Under the pieces are notes generated by a model that was given only the letters and a program-made list of their open reading frames with translations, searched no databases and had not been told where the DNA came from. Position numbers and translations under genes: made by a program. A DNA stretch of 64,000 nt, from the NCBI GenBank assembly GCA_030681515.1, contig JAUXSE010000017.1, positions 1 to 64,000 on the forward strand, given 5' to 3'. Positions 1 to 5,611 of the stretch are shown here, one piece after another; the stretch's first letter is position 1, and each line of letters begins with the position of its first letter. The DNA is from Geothrix sp. (GTDB lineage: Bacteria; Acidobacteriota; Holophagae; Holophagales; Holophagaceae).

Positions 1-111
1 GTGCCCCCAAAACCCGTGTAGGGAGGATGCCCGTTTCGGGGCAGCGCCTACGGACACAAACTGGTTGGGTCCTTACTGTGACTCACCAAGCAAGCGCCCG
101 CTCAAGTACAC
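1..111 (-). ncRNA. tracrRNA of the type II-C CRISPR system (3' end may lie outside the window)
   Basis: On the minus strand, positions 111-76 read nearly the same as the CRISPR repeat: GTGTACTTGAGCGGGCGCT, then a degenerate stretch, then CACAG. This is a 36-nt anti-repeat able to pair with a crRNA transcribed from the minus strand of the array. It is followed by TAAGGACC and, further on, GCGCTGCCCC. These resemble the TAAGGCC and GCTCTGCCCC parts of the Neisseria meningitidis tracrRNA as I remember it. A small TGCCC/GGGCA hairpin (28-43) and a GGGTTTT stretch near position 9 may mark the 3' end. The RNA would guide Cas9 by pairing with crRNA. The 3' limit is uncertain because the window starts here. 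Confidence 0.75.
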
Positions 112-115
112 GAGC

Positions 116-146
116 GTATGATTCCAGCAACCGTTGCAAACATCAA
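116..146 (-). promoter_or_regulatory. Candidate tracrRNA promoter
   Basis: On the minus strand a TTGATG (146-141) stands 19 bp before TCATAC (121-116). Initiation about 7 nt further on would start the RNA near 109, just at the anti-repeat. The match to a sigma70 promoter is weak and the spacer is long, so this is inference from position. If real, the promoter lies immediately upstream of the preferred cas9 start at 157 and would overlap the cas9 leader. Confidence 0.35.
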
Positions 147-156
147 GGGGTTTCCC

Positions 157-3100
157 ATGCCAGGTCCAGGCGAGATTGGAACCATTCTGGGATTGGATCT
201 GGGCACGGCATCGGTCGGATGGTGTGTCCTCGAAGCGGCCTGGGATCCCGGCACCAAGGGGTGGGTTCCTCACGCCATCCTGGGAATGGGCTCGCGCATT
301 TTCGACGCGGGGACCGAAGGCAGCGCTTCGGATATTGAGCGAGGCAAGGATGTCAGCCGAGGCGTAGCCCGACGACAGGCCCGGGGCCTGCGAAGGGGGT
401 TGGCCAGGCGGGCAGGCCGGATGCACGACCTGTTTCTCGCACTCGTGGGTGGGAGCCTGCTCCCGAAAGAAGGGGACCTCAGGCAACCGCTGTCCTTGAG
501 GATTTTCCAGACCCTCAAGGCGCTGGATGCCTCCCTGCTGGCGGCGGGGGAAGATCCGATTCGTCTCCCCTATGCGCTCCGGGCAAAGGCCCTGGCTGGG
601 CAACTCGAACCTTTTGCGCTGGGGCGGGCCCTCTATCACCTTGGCCAGCGCCGGGGATTCAAGAGCAATCGCAAGGCTGCCCGGAAAGAAGGCGAAGAAG
701 AAACAGGCAAGGTGCGAGGAGGCATCGAAACTCTGCGGCAACGCATGGCAAGCGAATCCGCTCCCACGCTGGGGAGGTTGTTCTCCAGACACAACCCCGA
801 GGATCATTCGGCTTCACCCAATCACAGAATCCGGGGGCGCTACACCTCCCGCGACATGATCGAGGCTGAGTTCGAGGCCATCTGGGCAGAACAGGCCAAC
901 CATCATCCCCAACTCTTGACGCCAGCGTTGAAAGCGAGGGTGCACAAGTGCATTTTCTTCCAGCGCCCCCTCAAGAGCGCGGAGGATCTGGTCGGTTGGT
1001 GCTCCCTGGAACAGGGCCGTTGGGTGAAGATCCGCAAAACCCACCGCAGGGATGGGCGGCCCCTTGACACTCCAACCTGGGTTCCGGTCTACAAGGCTCC
1101 TCGCCGCATGCCGTTGGCCCATCCTAAGGCCCAGCGGTTCCGCATCCTTCAGAAGGTCAACGACCTGAAAATTCTCTGGAATGACGGAACGACCGCGGAA
1201 CCAGACGCGGCCCAGCGGCAATGGCTCCTCGACGGACTTGATCAGGGAGACATGTCCTTCGTGGCGATGAAAGCCCAATGGGGGATTGGCCGCCGGGGGA
1301 AGCTGAATCTGGCTGAAGGCCCAGCCAAGGGGTTGCCTGGAAATCGGACCTTCGCCCGCATCGAAAAGGCGGCTCCCGGTTTCTGGGATCGGCTGGATGG
1401 GGAGCGGAGGGAGTCCTTGATCCGGGCCATGCGCCATGCTGAAGACTCCGTCCAGTTCGCCGCGTCCCTGCAAAGTGACTGGTTACTCGCCCCGGGCGAA
1501 GCCGCCAAGCTGGCAGATACATCCCTGGAGGAAGGCTACCTCTCCCTCTCGCGCCAGGCCGTGGAGAAATTGCTGCCCTGGTTGGAACGCGGCGTTCCTT
1601 ATTCCACCGCAGTCAAGCAGGTCTATGGCGAGGAGCCAGCGCAGAAACCGGTAGACAAACTTCCCCGTGTCATCGAAGCCTTCCCGGCGCTTCGCAATCC
1701 CATGGTGGCGCGAACCTTGACTGAGCTCCGCAAGGTGGTCCATGCAGTCATCCGTGCGTGGGGCAAGCCCGTCGCCATCCGCATCGAGCTGGCCCGGGAT
1801 CTCAAAAAAAGCCGCGATATCCGGGCCAGCATCTCAAAGAAGATCGCGGACCGGACCAAGAATCGCGACAAGGCGCGAGAGGCCATTCGCCCTCTGAAAT
1901 CAGATCCGAAAGGACGGGATATCGAGAAGTACCTGCTCTGGGAGGAGTGCGGCGGCCCCATGGCGCTGTGCCCGTACACCGGGAAGCCAATTACGCTTCA
2001 CGAACTGTTCCAGGAAAGCAGTCCGTGGGATGTCGAGCACATCATCCCCTTCAGCAAGTCCCTGGACGATTCCTTTGCCAACAAGACCCTTTGCTGGGCG
2101 GAACACAACCGGAATGTGAAACGGAACCGTGCGCCCATGGAAGCCTACGCCCCGGAGGCCATGGCCGATATGCTGGGCCGCGTCGAAAACTGGCCAGACG
2201 GGCCCGGGAAAACGGTGAAACTCCAGCGGTTCCGGCAGACGGAACTGGACGGGGATTTCATCTCCTCCCAATTGAACGACACGGCCCACGCCAGCCGTCT
2301 GGCCTGCCAGTACCTTGCCTTGCTGTACGGTGGGCTATGGGATGGAGAGGCCCGCCGCATCTACGCATCCAAAGGGCAGGTGACCGCCATGCTGCGGGGG
2401 CTTTGGGATCTCAACCCCTTGCTCGGCGGCCGCGAGAAGAATCGCCAGGATCATCGCCATCATGCACTGGACGCGCTGGTCATCGCCGTGACCAGCCCGG
2501 CGGCCCTCAAGGCCTTGTCGGACGCATCCCGCACGGGGTGGGAGTCACATCGCTCCCGCTTCGCCACCTTTGCCCTCCCCTGGGCAGATTTCGCGAGGGA
2601 CGCCTCGGCGGCGCTGGAGGCCATCACCATCAGCCGCCGTGTCCGCAGGAAACTGCAGGGGCGCATCCACAAGGACACGATCTACGGGGTGGACGGCGAC
2701 AGCCTGATCCAGCGGATTCGCGTGGAGGAGCTGAGCGCCAAGGACATAGTGAAGATCGTGGACCCCGAGATCCGGCGGCGAGTGGAGATCCGGTTGGAGG
2801 AACTTGGCAGTGCTGATCCCAAGAAGGCCTTCAAGGAGGCCAAGGACCACCCCTACATGCTGAGCAAGGATGGACGCCAGATCCCCATCCACCGGGTCCG
2901 GATCAAGGTATCCGGCACCGTCATGCCCGTGGGGCAGGGACATCGCCTGCGCCAGGTGGAATCCGACGCCAACCACCACATGACCATCCACGAGGCCCAG
3001 GACGCCAGGGGCCGGACCGTATGGAAAGCCGAGGTCGTGTCACAGTTCGAGGCCCTGCGCCGCCATGCGGCGAGTGAACCGGTGATCCGGCGAGGGGAGG

Positions 3101-3351
3101 GATTCGTCATGTCCCTGCGTTCGGGGGACACGGTGCAGTACTCAGAAAACGGTGTGCTGAAGGCTGCATGGATTCGCACGGTGCAGTCCAATTTCCAGAT
3201 CGGATTGGTTTCACATTTGGATGCAAGACTGAAAAAGGACCAAGCGAAAGACGGGGAGTATTTTATGGTCGCCCCTTCTCGTGCTCGTGAATTGGGCCTT
3301 CAGAAAACCCAAGTAAATCCACTAGGTCAAACCCGTATCTCCCGTGACTGA
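157..3351 (+). CDS. cas9: CRISPR-associated endonuclease Cas9, type II-C
   Basis: RNA-guided DNA endonuclease of 1064 aa, in the size range of compact II-C Cas9 proteins. RuvC-I is ILGLDLGTASVGW with D14. An arginine-rich bridge helix (GVARRQARGLRRGLARR) follows. RuvC-II is IRIELARD with E544. The HNH core is DVEHIIPFS with H628 and a downstream asparagine-rich segment. RuvC-III is HHALDAL with H769 and D772. All catalytic residues are present, so the protein should be active. The ATG at 157 is preferred because AAGGGG precedes it by 8 nt. An in-frame ATG at 118 has no convincing ribosome site and sits against the tracrRNA gene. The gene overlaps cas1 by 8 nt. The PAM cannot be read from sequence. 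Confidence 0.96.
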   Translation: MPGPGEIGTILGLDLGTASVGWCVLEAAWDPGTKGWVPHAILGMGSRIFDAGTEGSASDIERGKDVSRGVARRQARGLRRGLARRAGRMHDLFLALVGGSLLPKEGDLRQPLSLRIFQTLKALDASLLAAGEDPIRLPYALRAKALAGQLEPFALGRALYHLGQRRGFKSNRKAARKEGEEETGKVRGGIETLRQRMASESAPTLGRLFSRHNPEDHSASPNHRIRGRYTSRDMIEAEFEAIWAEQANHHPQLLTPALKARVHKCIFFQRPLKSAEDLVGWCSLEQGRWVKIRKTHRRDGRPLDTPTWVPVYKAPRRMPLAHPKAQRFRILQKVNDLKILWNDGTTAEPDAAQRQWLLDGLDQGDMSFVAMKAQWGIGRRGKLNLAEGPAKGLPGNRTFARIEKAAPGFWDRLDGERRESLIRAMRHAEDSVQFAASLQSDWLLAPGEAAKLADTSLEEGYLSLSRQAVEKLLPWLERGVPYSTAVKQVYGEEPAQKPVDKLPRVIEAFPALRNPMVARTLTELRKVVHAVIRAWGKPVAIRIELARDLKKSRDIRASISKKIADRTKNRDKAREAIRPLKSDPKGRDIEKYLLWEECGGPMALCPYTGKPITLHELFQESSPWDVEHIIPFSKSLDDSFANKTLCWAEHNRNVKRNRAPMEAYAPEAMADMLGRVENWPDGPGKTVKLQRFRQTELDGDFISSQLNDTAHASRLACQYLALLYGGLWDGEARRIYASKGQVTAMLRGLWDLNPLLGGREKNRQDHRHHALDALVIAVTSPAALKALSDASRTGWESHRSRFATFALPWADFARDASAALEAITISRRVRRKLQGRIHKDTIYGVDGDSLIQRIRVEELSAKDIVKIVDPEIRRRVEIRLEELGSADPKKAFKEAKDHPYMLSKDGRQIPIHRVRIKVSGTVMPVGQGHRLRQVESDANHHMTIHEAQDARGRTVWKAEVVSQFEALRRHAASEPVIRRGEGFVMSLRSGDTVQYSENGVLKAAWIRTVQSNFQIGLVSHLDARLKKDQAKDGEYFMVAPSRARELGLQKTQVNPLGQTRISRD

Positions 3352-4234
3352 CCGCGTCCTGGAAGTCGCCGATTCCCCCGCCCGGATCCATGTGGCGCTG
3401 GAATCGCTCCAGGTGGATCAACCCGGGCGGGAGCCGGTCCGGGTGCCACTGGAGGATCTGGCGGTGCTGGTGCTCTCCCACCCCCAGGCCCAGATCACCT
3501 CGGCTGCCCTGCAAGCCATCGCGATGGCGGGAGGCGCCGTGCTGGTCTGCGATGCCAAGCATCAGCCCGCGGGATTGCTGCTGCCGCTGCAAGGGCATTT
3601 CATCCAGGCCGAGCGCATGGCCCGGCAGGCCGCGGCGCCGCTTCCCCTGAAGAAACGGCTCTGGCAGCAGATCATCCAGGCCAAGGTGCTGGCCCAGGCG
3701 GGGCTGCTCCGGGCAGTGCGGGGCAGGGATGAAGGCCTCGGTATCTTGGCCCGGCAGGTCCGTTCCGGGGATGCCGGCAATCTGGAGGCCCAGGCCGCCC
3801 GGCGGTACTGGAAGGCCCTGTTCGGGGATCCGGGATTCAAGCGGGACCGGGAGGCGCCAGACGAGAACCGCTTCCTGAACTATGGGTACGCCGTGCTGCG
3901 GGCGCAGGTGGCCCGCAGCCTTTGCGCCAGCGGACTCCACCCGGCCCTGGGCCTCCAGCATCACAACCGCTATAGCGCCTTCCCCCTGGCCGATGACCTG
4001 ATGGAGCCCTACCGCCCCTTTGTGGATGCGGTGGCGGTGAAGTTGCTGGAGCACCACGGCGCCGAGGCCGACATGACCCGCGAGATCCGGGCGGAGTTGC
4101 TGGGAGTACTGCACGCCCGGGTGTTGCTGGGTGGCGAAAGCCTGCGTTTGTCCCACGCGGTACAGAAAAGCGCCCAGAGCCTCGCGGCGGCCCTCACGGG
4201 CAAGGCCCGGAAGCTCCAGTTCCCTGATCCATGA
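3344..4234 (+). CDS. cas1: CRISPR-associated endonuclease Cas1, type II
   Basis: Integrase subunit of the Cas1-Cas2 adaptation complex that inserts new spacers. It has 296 aa, usual for type II Cas1. The start is GTG, overlapping the cas9 stop by 8 nt. Visible family features are the N-terminal beta domain with LEDLAVLVLSHPQAQIT, then the alpha-helical catalytic domain with NLEAQAARRYW (metal-binding Glu), GLQHHNRYSAFPLADDL (metal-binding His) and DLMEPYRPFVD. It is followed by cas2 with a 4-nt ATGA overlap, so the three genes are translationally coupled. There is no cas4 or csn2, which fits subtype II-C. Confidence 0.95.
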   Translation: MTDRVLEVADSPARIHVALESLQVDQPGREPVRVPLEDLAVLVLSHPQAQITSAALQAIAMAGGAVLVCDAKHQPAGLLLPLQGHFIQAERMARQAAAPLPLKKRLWQQIIQAKVLAQAGLLRAVRGRDEGLGILARQVRSGDAGNLEAQAARRYWKALFGDPGFKRDREAPDENRFLNYGYAVLRAQVARSLCASGLHPALGLQHHNRYSAFPLADDLMEPYRPFVDAVAVKLLEHHGAEADMTREIRAELLGVLHARVLLGGESLRLSHAVQKSAQSLAAALTGKARKLQFPDP

Positions 4235-4563
4235 CCGACCTATCCGGATACCGCGCCATGTGGCTGCTGGCGATGTTCGACCTGCCCGTGGAAACCCCCG
4301 AACTGAAGCGGAGGTACGCCATCTTCAGGAAGGCCCTCCTGAAAGACGGCTTCATGATGTTGCAGTACTCGGTGTACGGCCGATTCTGTGAGAGTGAAGA
4401 CGCTGCCGAGGTCCACAGGAAGCGGGTCCGCCGCTGGGTGCCCGAGGAGGGAGAGGTCCGGGTGTTCGCCCTCACGGATCGCCAGTTCGCCAAGATGGAA
4501 GTCTTCCGGGGGAAACGCCGTGTTCCAGCCGAAGAAGTGCCCCCATTGCTGCAACTCATGTAG
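4231..4563 (+). CDS. cas2: CRISPR-associated protein Cas2
   Basis: Small ferredoxin-like structural subunit of the spacer-integration complex, 110 aa. The N-terminal strand MWLLAMFDLPVET carries the conserved Asp after a hydrophobic strand. It is followed by a helix rich in basic residues (LKRRYAIFRKALLKDG) and the MLQYSVYGR strand typical of Cas2. The ATG overlaps the cas1 stop (ATGA). A 10-bp hairpin follows 16 nt after the stop and separates the cas operon from the array. Confidence 0.94.
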   Translation: MTDLSGYRAMWLLAMFDLPVETPELKRRYAIFRKALLKDGFMMLQYSVYGRFCESEDAAEVHRKRVRRWVPEEGEVRVFALTDRQFAKMEVFRGKRRVPAEEVPPLLQLM

Positions 4564-4613: not shown

Positions 4614-5107
4614 AGTGTACTTGAGCGGGCGCTCTTGGCGGGCCACAGCAAGGCCGGATGGCGGTTCTACTCTGACGCCAGTGTACTTGAGCGGGCGCTC
4701 TTGGCGGGCCACAGCGGTGACTTCCCGCCATCGGTGTTCGCTCCCAGTGTACTTGAGCGGGCGCTCTTGGCGGGCCACAGCCGTCGGATTCAGTGCCCGG
4801 CTTTCCTCTCGAGTGTACTTGAGCGGGCGCTCTTGGCGGGCCACAGCCCGAGGCTGGGGAACATCACCGAGGGCTGAAGTGTACTTGAGCGGGCGCTCTT
4901 GGCGGGCCACAGCATGAAACGGCGGAAGTTCTTGAGGGCAACCAGTGTTCTTGAGCGGGCGCTCTTGGCGGGCCACCGCGACTTCGATCTGGCCCAGCAC
5001 AGCCTCGAGTGTACTTGAGCGGGCGCTCTTGGCGGGCCACAGCACCGGGTCCTCTCGATGGTCACGCGGAAAGTGTACTTGAGCGGGCGCTCTTGGCGGG
5101 CCACAGC
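4614..5107 (-). CRISPR. Type II-C CRISPR array, 8 repeats and 7 spacers
   Basis: Repeats of 36 nt start at 4614, 4680, 4746, 4812, 4878, 4944, 5008 and 5072. In the crRNA sense they begin GCTGTGGCCCGCC and end CTCAAGTACACT. Repeat six (4944-4979) has two substitutions (TAC to TTC and ACAG to ACCG); the others are identical. Spacers one to five are 30 nt; the two at 4980 and 5044 are 28 nt. The anti-repeat of the tracrRNA sets the orientation: crRNA is read from the minus strand, towards cas2. The leader would then be to the right (5108 onward). The repeat 3' end TACACT resembles a -10 box at the place where Neisseria repeats have TACAAT. Confidence 0.97.
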
Positions 5108-5144: not shown

Positions 5145-5192
5145 ACGGGCGGCTGCGCCTGGGGCTGACCAGCCCCAGGCGCAGCCGCCCGT
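5145..5192. repeat. 22-bp perfect inverted repeat beside the array
   Basis: Positions 5145-5166 and 5171-5192 are perfectly complementary, with a GACC loop and no mismatch. The stem is very GC-rich. It lies 37 bp beyond the last repeat, on the presumed leader side. It has no U tract, so it may be a transcriptional insulator, a repeat-element hairpin or a structured RNA. Nothing coding overlaps it convincingly. Confidence 0.6.
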
Positions 5193-5245
5193 AGATTGAA
5201 ACTGGCGATTTGCGCTTTTTGCCGGGGAATCCATACTGGTTTCCG

Positions 5246-5327
5246 GGGCTGCTAGGGCAGAGAGGTGTGGCAGCTTGCGGAGTCATCCGCCAGTCGGTTC
5301 GGGGGTTCGAATCCCCTCCAGCAGCCC
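5246..5327 (+). other. tRNA-like sequence, not a canonical tRNA
   Basis: The ends GGGCTGCT and AGCAGCCC form an 8-bp acceptor-like stem. Near the 3' end, GGGGGTTCGAATCCCC is a textbook T arm. The middle does not fold as a tRNA: GCGGA-GTCA-TCCGC makes a stable stem with a 4-nt loop where a 7-nt anticodon loop is needed, and the D-arm region is poor. Two extra nucleotides lie between T stem and acceptor. It could be a decayed class II tRNA, an unusual tRNA-like RNA or a remnant attachment site. I could not assign an anticodon. Confidence 0.45.
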
Positions 5328-5352
5328 TCTTCATTCAAAGATCTGGCGGTGT

Positions 5353-5376
5353 CGCGCGGGCCCCGAAACCCGCGCG
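5353..5376. terminator. GC-rich hairpin after the tRNA-like sequence
   Basis: CGCGCGGG (5353-5360) pairs with CCCGCGCG (5369-5376) around CCCCGAAA. There is no U tract. It lies 26 nt after the tRNA-like sequence and could be its terminator. The rest of 5377-5611 shows no gene I can support. Confidence 0.35.
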
Positions 5377-5611
5377 TGGATTGAACGCGCTCGACGGCCT
5401 TCGGAACGGTTTGCGGGGACCACCTCGGCATCTTGCTTGATGGGATAGAGCGAGCCGATCGGAAGCCATCGTGTCCTACCTGCCTCCAGCGGCTCCCGTT
5501 GGAGGGCGCGTTGGGCTGGGCCCTGCCCTGGTCTCCCGGGGCTGAACGGTGCATGACACCGGTGGCAGGCGCCCTGGACGCCCTCCAGGAACCAGTTGAG
5601 CCACCGGTTCG

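Follow-up and report, generated by a model that had tools for sequence, protein, structure and literature searches.

Does the tracrRNA gene at the left edge of this locus lie inside cas9, as an earlier note on this DNA had it by calling the gene nested at the 5' end of cas9, or does it stand upstream, and from which of two in-frame ATG codons does cas9 start? The locus opens the window, by which we mean the whole 64,000-nucleotide stretch of Geothrix sp. DNA analyzed here, whose position 1 is the first base of contig C3. In the reading that we favor, with a probability of about 0.93, window positions 1-160 would hold the 5' part of a type II-C tracrRNA gene transcribed leftward from about G111. 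Its -10/-35 promoter would occupy the cas9 5' leader (118-146), the -35 box overlapping the cas9 Shine-Dalgarno site, and cas9 would be translated from ATG157. The tracrRNA would then pair with crRNAs that the array (4614-5107) yields from its minus strand, and would load Cas9.

Table 1. Positions of the genes, RNA elements and predicted signals at the locus, in window coordinates
Feature	Position	Strand	Basis or remark
tracrRNA gene, 5' part	1..111	-	predicted +1 G111; covariance-model match, contig overlap
Second hairpin GUAGGCGCUGCCCC...GGGCAUCCUCCCUAC	18..51	-	fold
Nexus hairpin GGACCCAACCAGUUUGUGUCC (GGAC...GUCC)	52..72	-	fold and compensatory pair in relatives
Anti-repeat	76..111	-	local alignment, shuffles, duplex folding
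Candidate cas9 -10 box TATGAT	117..122	+	reciprocal to tracrRNA -10; hypothetical +1 A129; sequence and geometry
Predicted tracrRNA -10 box AATCAT	118..123	-	position conserved over 17/20 anti-repeats
Predicted tracrRNA -35 box TTGATG	141..146	-	17-nt spacer to -10
cas9 Shine-Dalgarno AAGGGG	145..150	+	overlaps tracrRNA -35 box
cas9 (type II-C)	157..3351	+	TIGR01865, 562.8 bits; most likely start ATG157
cas1 (Neisseria-type)	3344..4234	+	TIGR03639, E 3e-78
cas2	4231..4563	+	TIGR01573
CRISPR array	4614..5107	- (crRNA strand)	8 repeats of 36 nt, 7 spacers of 28-30 nt

The window CRISPR system is an ordinary type II-C CRISPR-Cas9. Besides TIGR01865, its Cas9 matches the HNH_4 and RuvC_III profiles, has the RuvC and HNH domains of a II-C-like enzyme, and finds its nearest solved structures among Cas9 chains (~1082 aa). 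The three genes cas9, cas1 and cas2 form an operon lacking csn2 and cas4, as there is no room for either between the end of cas2 and the array. Judged from its pairing with the tracrRNA, the crRNA strand of the array is probably the minus strand, opposite to the cas operon. A search of viral contigs returned no relative of the window Cas9, and the spacers found no target in the tracrRNA/cas9 leader or the rest of the 64-kb window, the best matches reaching 21/28 or fewer. Just past the array lies a perfect 23-bp inverted repeat with a 2-nt loop (5145-5192), followed at 5244-5332 by a tRNA-like fold with a 9-bp acceptor-like stem, a GGTTCGAATCC arm and a loop containing TCA, which neither ARAGORN nor Rfam recognized and which had no full match in 76 other genomes of the family. 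A single sequence at 5351-5385, GTCGCGC...GCGCGTGGATTGAA, occurs once in the genome and presumably resembles a type I-C CRISPR repeat.

Window positions 1-117 recur exactly as the last 117 bases of a second contig, C14, a match that we read as an assembly overlap; C14 would therefore extend the locus to the left. The probable continuity of C14 and C3 rests on this overlap together with synteny in one relative of the same genus (G025), in which a homolog of the C14 gene, judged as such by eye from translations, adjoins moaA. The ORF upstream of the locus on C14 matched no Pfam family. Between that homolog and moaA the same relative carries a lone copy of the window CRISPR repeat, identical at 36/36 positions (L076 1500-1535; G025:C82, near 27979), the genes on its two sides being homologs of those flanking the CRISPR locus of the window. 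Searches of this 72%-complete genome found neither cas9 nor tracrRNA, and the site resembles a locus that has been emptied down to a solo repeat.

The earlier note had proposed a 36-nt anti-repeat on the minus strand (111-76), and the alignments bear it out. This segment is the best reverse-complement match to the array repeat, with an alignment score of 45 against 23 for the runner-up in the locus and 25 elsewhere in the window; 300 shuffled repeats gave a mean of 22.1 (sd 2.2, maximum 37). Its first 19 nt (111-93) match the plus-strand reading of the array repeat without a difference and are therefore complementary to the crRNA repeat. The duplex between repeat and tracrRNA is predicted at -64.3 kcal/mol, with almost complete pairing around an internal bulge, and among 11 repeats the anti-repeat pairs most strongly with its own. 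A better anti-repeat elsewhere in the genome had been named as what would overturn the proposal. BLASTN, pattern and covariance-model searches of the whole genome returned no anti-repeat besides the array and the C14 match, which we dismiss as a second copy because it is the contig overlap.

Downstream of the anti-repeat, the predicted transcript, which runs leftward from G111 and is 135 nt long, forms three hairpins: the nexus, a second one and the terminator. The last of these, GGGCACCGGAAACGGUGCCC, lies mostly on C14, where about 24 further nucleotides (L020 5127-5150, C14 being L020) complete the 3' end and supply most of the terminator stem; both the 3' end and the terminator lie beyond window base 1 and had been missed. 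We built a covariance model from four tracrRNAs, those of the window and three Holophagaceae relatives. It matches the minus strand of window 1-111, where the match is cut at its 3' end, and gives a full-length match at L020 5127-5261 (minus, 145.9 bits). The model recovers all four of its members and also picks up, though weakly, tracrRNAs of several other Acidobacteriota, and it has further weak matches in other genomes of the family. Two of the latter were set aside, one in G011 as a look-alike terminator hairpin and one in G025 as the lone repeat; the others scored 19-21 bits. A search of the Rfam library returned no tracrRNA match.

The tracrRNA body folds better than 199/200 shuffles, and in the four-sequence alignment, few sequences as these are, its structure outscores slid controls. 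Four column pairs carry pairing-preserving changes on both sides, in stems that include the nexus and the terminator; in the second hairpin the inner stem is kept in 4/4 sequences and the outer stem less so. The Neisseria-like nexus proposed to follow the anti-repeat thus stands, as a hairpin that folds and that shows compensatory changes across the three relatives, and we take it to resemble the nexus of the Nme tracrRNA. The terminator T-tract is poor in the window genome (TCTTCGCTTT) and good in the relatives. Together, and at the level of sequence, these comparisons confirm the minus strand of window 1-111 as a genuine, if predicted, tracrRNA gene of a type II-C system. Taken by itself, the tracrRNA (window 111-50, minus) is predicted to fold the anti-repeat onto the nexus (columns 11-18 with 55-62 of alignment A1); one pair of this fold changes from GC to AU in two relatives, a change that crRNA pairing and the nexus explain as well.

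The position of the gene relative to cas9 depends on the cas9 start. AAGGGG ends six bases upstream of ATG157, and the predicted duplex with the anti-Shine-Dalgarno sequence reaches -7.4 kcal/mol for ATG157 vs -1.8 for ATG118. The relative L058 has GTG in place of ATG157, with a stronger Shine-Dalgarno sequence (-11.5). Between the two candidate starts (118-156), the comparison with L058 gives 5/3/3 substitutions by codon position against 188/117/564 in cas9 (Fisher p 0.02); the segment has no third-position bias and no coding signature. A longer cas9, leaderless or weakly initiated at ATG118 and with the tracrRNA promoter inside its coding sequence, could appeal to the frame being open from 118 and to the conservation of ATG118 in L058. 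However, ATG118 is the complement of the tracrRNA -10 box (ATGATT on the plus strand), which accounts for its conservation, and it lacks a Shine-Dalgarno sequence, the codons that follow it lack coding bias, and L045 has an in-frame stop between anti-repeat and start, all of which leaves the longer protein very improbable. The most likely start is ATG157, as the earlier note had preferred. With that start the tracrRNA would lie wholly upstream of cas9, with only its promoter in the leader, and the description of the gene as nested within cas9 is to be given up.

For comparison, we drew on cas9 relatives gathered from 77 genomes of the family, 396 genomes of the phylum and plasmids. In 12/12 Acidobacteriota loci with an array, the window included, the best anti-repeat lies upstream of cas9 in reverse-complement orientation, and five plasmid loci (Pseudomonadota, Bdellovibrionota) have it in the same place and orientation; in all of these the crRNA strand is opposite to cas. 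Two plasmids carry unusual annotations: in Azospirillum (L060) cas9 is annotated as two overlapping ORFs, and in Novosphingobium (L064) cas1 is annotated as a short fragment only.

Sigma-70-like sites were scored in the 75 nt upstream of each of 20 anti-repeats, drawn from 19 loci of Acidobacteriota and plasmids of two other phyla, with an approximate weight matrix typed from general knowledge. In 17 of the 20 the -10 of the best site ends 5-7 nt before the anti-repeat, a regularity with a naive binomial p of 4e-17, which is overstated since the loci are related. In the window this site falls at -35 146-141 and -10 123-118, within the region (116-146) where the promoter had been predicted. The window's own site is weak (AATCAT, 6.9 bits), and a consensus scan demanding 9/12 matches did not detect it; the putative promoter, slight by itself, is well supported through its conservation. 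In most loci 44-54 nt (median 50) separate the anti-repeat from the cas9 start, which leaves the cas9 leader filled by the tracrRNA promoter. The -35 box of that promoter frequently abuts the cas9 Shine-Dalgarno sequence or shares bases with it (as in CGTCAAGGAG in L053 and CATCAAGGGG in the window). The overlap of promoter and leader is well supported, the window promoter being confined to 45-50 bases ahead of the cas9 start, and the earlier note was right in setting the two units back to back in some 50 bp. A literature search, with the original II-C reports outside its reach, found no description of this fixed geometry. At one locus (L055, G285) two tandem tracrRNA-like genes stand upstream of a single cas9, their anti-repeats ending at 5547 and 5920, each with a well-placed promoter.

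For cas9 itself, a scan of the window's plus strand from -250 to +45 yielded no promoter clearly above shuffled sequence, and the competition between the two transcripts that the earlier note had suggested is for that reason conjectural. The outcome of the scan is one reason to consider, tentatively, that cas9 is transcribed from within the tracrRNA gene or from a point upstream of it, which would give the cas9 mRNA a leader antisense to the tracrRNA. The best site in the window, CGGACA-17-TACTGT, does lie inside the tracrRNA gene, its -10 ending 33 nt before the end of the anti-repeat; C14 carries a same-strand ORF a short way upstream, and on the plus strand the tracrRNA terminator lacks a T-run. 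Against this, such sites score no better than shuffles, and their position is not conserved.

Another possibility, on the unlikely side, refines our preferred reading as to the cas9 promoter: cas9 and tracrRNA would share a symmetric -10 element (117-123) from which polymerase could leave either way, with mutually exclusive initiations at G111 and A129. TATGAT (117-122) and AATCAT (123-118) have their -11A and -7T reciprocally paired, the predicted cas9 +1 is an A, and the start sites would lie exactly 18 bp from each other, the commonest start-site spacing of bacterial bidirectional promoters (PMC10268837). The geometry is compatible with the 7-25 bp between divergent start sites by which such promoters are defined. 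Positions 112-126 are identical in a relative of 77% identity, in which 132-156 are 60% identical, and in G076/L046 the reciprocal plus-strand box is a perfect TATAAT. TATGAT is itself conserved in L058, and as a full promoter it scores no better than chance. On the other side, the reciprocal box scores well in only 9/20 anti-repeats, the plus-strand -35 is poor (GCGCCC), no plus-strand site clearly beats shuffles, and any TANNNT box is partly symmetric. The idea of a shared -10, with an 18-bp distance between the two starts, is a testable hypothesis. The fuller version, in which both units would fire from one symmetric -10, the -35 and ribosome-binding site would overlap, and mutual exclusion at the DNA would couple the two, we hold to be rather unlikely.

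Less probable still is a cas9 promoter built on a -10 box common to the anti-repeat and the CRISPR repeat, whose 3' end in the array reads TACACT. Averaged over the loci, the best plus-strand -10 score peaks there (3.2 bits), TACACT/TACAAT is intact in L045-L053, and the arrangement would parallel the repeat-borne promoters that drive crRNAs in Neisseria-type arrays (cited for II-C arrays in PMC10281378). The window and L058, however, have TACACG, missing the key last T, and pairing with the crRNA would conserve the position anyway.

Whichever cas9 promoter applies, the favored reading of a tracrRNA gene upstream of ATG157 draws its anti-repeat, folded body, promoter position and short cas9 from sequence and comparison, while transcription of the tracrRNA and its loading onto Cas9 we infer. 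We likewise infer an influence of the two transcription units on each other, because the leader is too short for two separate promoters. Our analysis adds to the earlier note the fixed promoter position in the compared systems, the overlap of -35 and Shine-Dalgarno sequence, an explanation of ATG118 and the shared-promoter hypothesis. The cas9 start and the tracrRNA, which anyone expressing the window Cas9 needs, are settled here as far as sequence can settle them, in a little-studied clade. More generally, the place of the tracrRNA promoter in the cas9 leader hardly varies across most of the II-C systems compared, and as a rule the promoter adjoins or covers the Shine-Dalgarno site (TCAAGGAG-like motif). 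Should this overlap couple tracrRNA and cas9, it would provide a simple built-in control of the dose of Cas9 relative to its RNA, in a system lacking the self-repression known from tracr-L.

In Streptococcus pyogenes (type II-A), a long tracrRNA acts as a single guide that represses Pcas (PMC11417352), and the window would be similar in that the tracrRNA locus may bear on cas9 expression. A tracr-L self-guide in the window was considered and rejected, as the upstream 120 nt pair with the anti-repeat no better than shuffles do (-23.9 vs a mean of -29.3). Bacterial bidirectional promoters (PMC10268837) share with the window the reciprocal -10 boxes and the 18-bp spacing of its hypothetical starts, a likeness in geometry only, as the cas9 start site is predicted. 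A further comparison is the metagenomic II-C system EH CRISPR-Cas9 (PMC10281378), whose tracrRNA is also predicted upstream of cas9, with a promoter and a terminator and in the same direction as the array; the activity of EH Cas9 was tested experimentally, whereas the window system is a prediction. The II-C systems of Neisseria meningitidis and Pasteurella multocida, like the window, have a cas9-cas1-cas2 operon preceded by a reverse-strand tracrRNA, and their array is transcribed opposite to cas, as the window array probably is. The window differs from them in that no scaRNA-like extra repeat was found near its locus, in its host phylum (Acidobacteriota, Holophagaceae) and in its repeat sequence. 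Published maps already show this layout in Neisseria and Pasteurella (PMC3936727, PMC6199352), so it was known before, and the window locus belongs to this Neisseria-type II-C arrangement.
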